Program-made: the position numbers and the translations under genes | Shown here: positions 20,545 to 21,183 of the stretch, one piece after another | Layout: each line of letters begins with the position of its first letter | How positions within the stretch are numbered: position 1 is the stretch's first letter | The notes under the pieces: generated by a model | Told to the model about the DNA's origin: nothing | The model's database searches: none | The model's input: only the letters and a program-made list of their open reading frames with translations | From: Hyphomonadaceae bacterium | GTDB lineage: Bacteria > Pseudomonadota > Alphaproteobacteria > Caulobacterales > Hyphomonadaceae | Assembly: GCA_947474455.1 (NCBI GenBank) | Contig: CANJIL010000010.1 | Coordinates: 1-64,000 of the forward strand | Reading direction: 5' to 3' | DNA length: 64,000 nt

Positions 20545-21183
20545 ATGAGCAGGAAGGCGGCCCTGATCGGCTTCCTGGTTGTCCAGGTAATCACGGTCGT
20601 TCTGTGGGTCACCGCCGTATTGCCCCTGATGCAGCCGAATGGCCCGCCTTTCATTGGCACGGCCGACGAGACATTCACCGGTCGCATCTTCTCGGCCTTG
20701 TCGTTCAACTTTCGCTCCGGCGAAACCTCGCTCATCTCGCCGCGCTTCAACCCCGCGGGCCCGCTCCTATGGGCCAGCCTGCTGATGCTCGCAGCAGGCG
20801 CCGCCGGTTTTGTGAGCCTCCAGATGTTCCGGCTGGGCAGGACTTGGATCAGCGTCGGGCTTGCGGCAGTGGCTTTGATGCTTGGTCTCGGCGGCATCTG
20901 GTTCATCGTCGAACAGTGGTCAGGCGACACGATGTTCGGTGCGGGCTCCGTAGGGCCGCTCTGGCTTTACGCGATGGCGCGCGCTTTCCTGCTCCAGTTC
21001 TTCATCGGCTTTGTGCTGCTGGCCCTGTCCATCGTGACCGTGATCGCTGGTTTTGCGACGAAAGAGCGTCCGCTCGGCTTCCACGTTGTCGCACTCAACT
21101 GGGTCGTCGTTGCTGTGGTGTGGGTCGTAACCTATCTGGCGTTGTATCTGGCGCCGTCACTTTCGGCGGGTGCCACAGCCTGA
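20545..21183 (+). CDS. Uncharacterised membrane protein resembling a degenerate COX III C-terminal half
   Basis: 212 aa with about five hydrophobic helices. I did not recognise a named family. Its last 28 residues align without gaps to the end of ctaE: LGFHVVALNWVVVAVVWVVT against [20 protein letters not shown], both ending YxAP, with about 12 of 28 positions identical. The preceding helix (ARAFLLQFFIGFVLLAL) resembles the CtaE segment TGFHGAHVVIGTIML. The conserved His and Asp of subunit III are replaced (YWHFVD becomes NWVVVA). It lies 11 nt after ctaE and 7 nt before the DUF983 gene. It may be a duplicated subunit III turned structural or assembly protein; ordinary helix resemblance is the alternative. 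Confidence 0.7.
   Translation: MSRKAALIGFLVVQVITVVLWVTAVLPLMQPNGPPFIGTADETFTGRIFSALSFNFRSGETSLISPRFNPAGPLLWASLLMLAAGAAGFVSLQMFRLGRTWISVGLAAVALMLGLGGIWFIVEQWSGDTMFGAGSVGPLWLYAMARAFLLQFFIGFVLLALSIVTVIAGFATKERPLGFHVVALNWVVVAVVWVVTYLALYLAPSLSAGATA

Follow-up and report, generated by a model that had tools for sequence, protein, structure and literature searches.

Mitochondrial-type oxidases have gathered many accessory subunits, the origins of which are mostly lost in deep time. To our knowledge, the five-helix subunit III of E. coli bo3, actinobacterial bcc-aa3, and B. subtilis aa3-600 is the sole subunit III of each of these enzymes. Two published papers already describe five-helix subunit III, a split subunit III (CtaE + CtaF), and a COX3 doublet in one type of aa3 operon (PMC4013037; PMC8361435). 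The locus analyzed here, from a window of 64,000 nucleotides (the whole stretch of DNA under study), apparently resembles that doublet in having two COX3 proteins in one type of aa3 operon, but here the second copy is degenerate and the operon is of the ctaC-D-B-G-E type. No description of a degenerate, genus-limited second subunit III was found in literature titles and abstract openings, a scope outside which most subscription papers lie. With seven-helix CtaE/CoxC (PF00510), the product of the second gene, P0001, shares homology over helices 3–7, the register, a compatible topology, and an adjacent gene position, but it is devoid of helices 1–2 and of the conserved E/H/D residues. It is not classed here as a subunit III, although homologous to one, because the defining residues, helices 1–2, and a sufficient Pfam score were all found lacking when tested. 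With the five-helix proteins it shares the five-helix architecture, and 6adq_G, 7xmc_C, 7qhm_F, and 6kob_C are among its structural matches; however, a divergent relative of that size (L020) retains the main E/H/D set, which P0001 does not. NorE, a further COX3-like protein, belongs to a different operon and enzyme.

The genes of the operon are given in Table 1, in which the ctaB-like, CoxF-like, and ctaG-like names are those we presume to apply. The P0001 frame is intact from its ATG at 20545 to its stop at 21183; 11 nt separate the ctaE stop from this ATG and 7 nt separate its end from the ATG of the DUF983 gene, with the SURF1 gene next downstream. A PF00510 search of the genome at E 0.001 yielded ctaE as the single match, and ctaE is the likely parent of P0001. 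CtaD has a His-rich N-terminal extension (approximately residues 13–36, with HG/HD/HH repeats) ahead of the conserved subunit I part, which is possibly metal binding.

Table 1. Genes of the aa3 oxidase operon in the window, with the evidence for each assignment.
Feature	Coordinates	Strand	Details
ctaC, oxidase subunit II	15039..15989	+	PF00116 5.1e-36, PF02790 4.3e-23
ctaD, oxidase subunit I	16005..17714	+	PF00115 4.7e-159, searched as 16008-17714
ctaB-like protein (heme O synthase)	17766..18716	+	sequence and position
93-aa protein, CoxF-like by position	18713..18994	+	no Pfam family above cut-off
ctaG-like copper chaperone	18991..19557	+	inner ATG of 218-aa frame 18901-19557; start approximate; sequence and position
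ctaE, cytochrome c oxidase subunit III (P0002)	19634..20533	+	299 aa; PF00510 5.2e-76 over 7-284
putative degenerate COX3 paralogue (P0001)	20545..21183	+	212 aa, equivalent to CtaE 83-294
DUF983 protein	21191..21559	+	PF06170 4.6e-31 for frame 21170-21559; start chosen from ATG
SURF1 family protein (oxidase assembly factor)	21589..22299	+	PF02104 6.5e-15

An earlier note on this DNA had pointed to an ungapped match between the last 28 residues of P0001 and the end of subunit III, and we recovered it with the same 12 of 28 identities, between P0001 177–204 (LGF...YLAP) and CtaE 259–286 (LGF...YVAP). The note had seen the resemblance in the last two helices, which is correct but understated, as the profile match begins at helix 3 and continues to the end: in hhalign with P0001 as the master sequence, P0001 3–209 was aligned with CtaE 85–291 at 96.5% (E 8e-10, 196 columns). 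BLASTP of P0001 against CtaE gave 34% over 59 aa (E 2e-7). The family profile (A1, 11 rows out of the 13 copies from the genus) matched a profile of 13 subunit III sequences (A2, 12 CtaE and L020) at 96.4% (E 1.3e-9, 144 columns); CtaE as a single sequence scored 94.2%, single sequences from the same operon (CtaD, CtaB, CtaC, SURF1, and DUF983) 0.2–0.7%, and the reversed profiles 0.2% and 0.4%. Among ungapped registers, offset 82 alone was high-scoring: it reached 40, with 39 identities, along the full 212 residues, and the runner-up offset scored −17. When residues were shuffled 2000 times within helices and loops, no offset scored above 27. Most of the observed score came from helix 1 and the last helix, and the long loop contributed negatively. 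Against Pfam COX3 (PF00510), P0001 alone reached 14.7 bits (E 0.029, residues 141–202), below the gathering cut-off of 23.8, and 3 of 11 family members had COX3 matches at E ≤1, the best at 2.5e-5. Searched against the PDB, the family profile gave subunit III chains in its top 11 rows, from 1m56_C at 2.8e-7 to the eleventh at 0.071, followed by three sticholysin chains at E of at least 0.7; below E 0.1, COX3 chains were thus the only matches, and not an unrelated membrane family, an outcome that the note had kept in view. The chains reached were 260–274 residues long, the size of the seven-helix protein, and no five-helix-sized subunit III chain appeared at E ≤1. PF07835, the bacterial aa3 subunit IV family, gave no row for P0001 up to E 10. 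Judged by its sequence, P0001 is homologous to COX3 over almost its full length.

Structure prediction agrees with this assignment. The AlphaFold2 model, built from four sequences (the window and related loci), has five helices (3–29, 73–96, 100–124, 136–172, and 179–211) and modest confidence (pLDDT 64.8, pTM 0.60, residues 31–66 below 50). In Foldseek against the PDB, the best 35 rows were all heme-copper oxidase or respiratory supercomplex entries, with a best E of 6.8e-3 and no match at E ≤0.001. A comparison scored by Z placed respiratory oxidase entries in rows 1–42, at Z 11.5–16.6 over approximately model residues 1–205, with the first unrelated row at Z 11.4; by the tool's own guidance, Z below about 13 carries little meaning for helical models. 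The COX3 fold, with which the earlier note had proposed a comparison, is matched by this model at Z up to 16.6. Residues 1–205 of the model aligned to Paracoccus COX3 81–273 (1qle_C, Z 15.3), and residue 1 fell at position 81 in that chain, 82 in another alphaproteobacterial chain (9fks_i), and 74 in R. sphaeroides 1m56_C. In a MAFFT merge, Met1 fell at CtaE 83, and the ungapped scan gave a single net offset, 82, along the whole protein. When membrane sides, which we assumed from the COX3 topology, were assigned to the segments, the mean number of Lys + Arg per member was 1.83, 2.08, and 1.75 in the three predicted cytoplasmic segments, 0.08 and 0.25 in the two short segments on the periplasmic side, and 2.58 in the 41-residue predicted periplasmic loop, a distribution that fits the positive-inside rule. 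From the fold, the register, and the Lys/Arg pattern together, P0001 looks like a subunit III minus helices 1–2.

Among positions conserved in at least 95% of 38 CtaE sequences and mapped to the P0001 family, retention in at least half of the 12 family members was seen at none of the 12 charged or His positions and at 21 of the 79 others (a post hoc contrast). Replacement of the His and Asp of the subunit III motif YWHFVD, stated in the earlier note, is borne out, as P0001 reads NWVVVA. CtaE E96, H230, H233, H269, and D272 are lost in all 12 members and E206 in 10, two members having Glu and the others Gln. E96, presumably the equivalent of Glu90 of bovine oxidase by the SEV motif, is Gln (Q14 in P0001) in every member, H233 is Gln in 10 of 12, and Y267 is invariably Asn (N185 in P0001); E262 is Glu in two members, and K257 is Lys in four and Arg in eight. 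Retained in 12/12 are F92, W103, G260, W268, and W275 (CtaE numbering). Family invariants that are absent from CtaE include Q14, G117, W125, L141, and N185, and R57 and G59 are invariant within a loop not mapped to CtaE; in P0001 numbering, the positions identical in 12/12 include Q14, W21, R57, G59, W125, N185, W186, and W193. As a control we used L020, the divergent subunit III relative of five-helix size, which comes from a different genome in the order and has 39% identity to CtaE over 141 residues. It retains E96, E206, H230, H233, H258, H269, and D272 and is changed at H174, H175, R247, and E262, so the loss of the latter four says little, while the loss of the former seven is telling.

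We then examined the distribution of the gene, a search that the earlier note had proposed. The P0001 family occurs in 13 of the 15 genomes of the genus and was not found in 90 other genomes of the family, 84 of which gave one ctaE-like match scoring no more than 54 bits and six no match; the 84 were classed as ctaE by this score and by frame length, one of them (G119) being a 141-aa frame. In overlapping samples of the order (299 genomes), class (385), and phylum (398), searched at E 1e-13, genus members alone were returned (three P0001 copies and the ctaE of G009 in the order sample, the window's own copy in the class and phylum samples); scoring covered the 10, 8, and 7 best candidates of each genome, respectively, so weak relatives elsewhere would escape. 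A single-sequence search of relatives at E 1e-3 matched 24 of 61 genomes, 13 of them (the window's included) with P0001 family members of at least 78 bits and the rest with matches of at most 26 bits, which, where opened, were subunit III frames with the exception of L031; that match had no CtaE resemblance and was taken for chance. A pattern scan of genome contigs recovered three relatives only, each also in the genus set, namely two MAGs labelled Hyphomonadaceae and Alphaproteobacteria bacterium 32-64-14.

The neighborhood is well conserved. In 12 of 12 genomes in which that side of the contig is present, ctaE lies directly upstream of the P0001 gene at a spacing of 6–36 nt (starts chosen), and DUF983 lies downstream in 11 of 13 carriers. 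The two without the operon DUF983, G002 (L016 2076–2219) and G014 (the matching place), have a single copy elsewhere in the genome; they are also the carriers with the most divergent P0001 paralogue. A second DUF983 gene outside the oxidase operon was seen at G000:C80:2174–2425, and two copies were counted in 10 of the 15 genus genomes. As for the two genomes of the genus without P0001, G007 (73% complete) matched neither P0001 nor ctaE, and G009 (99% complete) has the aa3 operon without P0001, in which ctaE is followed by DUF983 and SURF1-like frames. In our trees, the P0001 family is monophyletic (100/100) and its branch is very long; constraining it to group with the CtaE of its own genus lowers the log-likelihood by 0.15 units (p-AU 0.395), and given this branch length and p-AU, the choice of the parental CtaE is beyond the tree. 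The CtaE tree places G009 in an unresolved fork inside the genus, and a tree of a shorter region groups it with the carriers G002 and G014 (94/81). Such a grouping would mean loss of the gene in G009; the never-gained reading is likewise possible.

Frames are open in all 12 full-length members, the thirteenth (G012) being cut by the start of its contig. Nei-Gojobori dN/dS in the five pairs of at least 70% identity was 0.18, 0.20, 0.18, 0.09, and 0.19, and the family is under purifying selection in these closest pairs. Across all reported pairs (those more than 50% identical or including the window copy), the ratio was 0.09–0.56, compared with 0.04–0.25 in CtaE, and many of the synonymous distances were close to saturation; the highest value, 0.56, came from the distant pair G000–G011. 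P0001 changes faster than CtaE: identity to the window copy within the genus is 35–71% for P0001 and 77–87% for CtaE, and dN was, for example, 0.31–0.32 against 0.11 (G001/G006–G010).

The enzyme concerned can be narrowed down from the carriers. In G002 and G014 (each 99% complete), one PF00115 protein was found, encoded approximately 3 kb upstream of the P0001 gene on its contig, which is indicative that the heme-copper enzyme served there, if any, is aa3; G004 (95% complete) likewise has a single PF00115 protein. The presence of the aa3 operon without P0001 in G009 indicates that P0001 is dispensable for the oxidase itself. Four CtaE columns are fixed in the genus, G009 included, and no column was found that is fixed in 12 carriers and absent from G009 and 25 others; hence there is no trace of a matching change in CtaE. 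A swap of subunit IV for P0001 was considered as well, since at E 1e-3 PF07835 was found in none of the 13 carriers but did occur in G009 and in 8 of the 10 other genomes of the family. At a lax threshold, sub-threshold matches appeared in six of the 13 carriers (G000, G004, G008, G011, G012, and G013; model positions 5 to 37–39, compared with 7–39 in G009), and the swap was rejected as a threshold artefact, the same small conserved protein being present at the loci read, those of the six carriers and G009. This small protein (in G000, L108 1061–1456 on contig C1), which in the carriers lies under the PF07835 cut-off, looks like a diverged aa3 subunit IV whose hydrophobic C-terminal part is extended.

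We consider it more likely than not that P0001, derived from a ctaE-type subunit III by tandem copying and N-terminal truncation, serves aa3 as an accessory or assembly/stability subunit, an estimate that counts permanent subunit and assembly factor together and is divided between the chaperone and structural-subunit readings below. A duplicated subunit III turned accessory was also the reading of the earlier note; homology, predicted fold, degeneracy, purifying selection, and operon position support it, the tandem-copy origin is the best reading, and the accessory or assembly role is what we infer. Tandem copying was probably accompanied by truncation, with helices 3–7 alone retained, and divergence would have turned the copy into a membrane protein of five helices that has no catalytic role and is encoded in the operon of the aa3 cytochrome c oxidase. 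It would have kept the framework on which the helices of subunit III pack (conserved Trp, Gly, and Pro) and probably the topology, with the N-terminus in the cytoplasm and the C-terminus in the periplasm. The acid/His groups of subunit III have been replaced, several by neutral polar ones (Q14 for E96, N185 for Y267, and Gln for E206 and H233 in most members), so that P0001 could pack on oxidase subunits or lipids without joining the proton/lipid chemistry attributed to subunit III. It would then probably bind the aa3 oxidase in an accessory or assembly role. Lacking the two-helix bundle and the lost residues, P0001 cannot be expected to replace CtaE, which is itself intact.

Assembly factors are often fast-evolving, and the faster change of P0001 than of CtaE, together with its position between ctaE and DUF983-SURF1 in an operon stretch rich in assembly genes (ctaG-like and SURF1), would suit a COX3-derived chaperone that stays outside the mature enzyme and keeps hold of subunit I or CtaE while it is inserted into the membrane; adjacency to ctaE is, however, equally compatible with a permanent subunit, and we regard the chaperone as a serious possibility that falls short of probable. 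It is less likely that P0001 is an additional structural subunit which, docked on aa3, alters its partners, for example as a complex III–IV bridge. The predicted fold is shared with five-helix subunit III chains of mycobacterial supercomplexes, and R57, G59, W125, and F131, invariant in 12/12 and on the predicted periplasmic side, could form a docking patch, but no matching CtaE changes were found. Subunit III surfaces are reported to serve complex III–IV bridging in M. smegmatis and F. johnsoniae (PMC8361435). It is a shade more doubtful still that the genus's aa3 has two subunit III-type proteins, the charge-neutralized five-helix copy being a stoichiometric subunit that contacts bc1 or a second aa3 through a new interface, and hence a supercomplex bridge from a duplicated subunit III.

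NorB belongs to PF00115. If P0001 were NorE-like, serving a different heme-copper enzyme (nitric oxide reductase or quinol oxidase) and lying beside ctaE by accident, it would have a precedent in NorE, a COX3-like protein outside cytochrome c oxidase; the adjacency of ctaE in all 12 visible loci and the lack of a second PF00115 protein in G002 and G014 render this very improbable. Even less is to be said for a decaying, functionless duplicate. The lost signature residues, the fast change, and the one distant pair at 0.56 point that way, but against them stand the open full-length frames, dN/dS below 1 in every reported pair, and the eight positions listed above as identical in 12/12. That P0001 is an unrelated membrane protein resembling COX3 through chance helix composition, as its sub-cut-off Pfam score and the weak Foldseek E-values might suggest, is the hardest of all to credit in view of the hhalign controls (reversed profiles and unrelated membrane proteins, ≤0.7%), the shuffles that never reach the offset-82 score, and the PDB profile matches.

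In its details P0001 looks new, but it is a variation on a familiar protein, and its importance is modest because both a COX3 doublet and five-helix subunit III have been published before. In essence, an accessory subunit appears to have been born within one bacterial genus, in which a core subunit was copied, truncated, and neutralized, and the congeneric G009 without the gene allows comparison. The P0001 family is also a natural experiment on the importance of individual residues of subunit III, as the packing residues were kept and the acid/His set was dropped.
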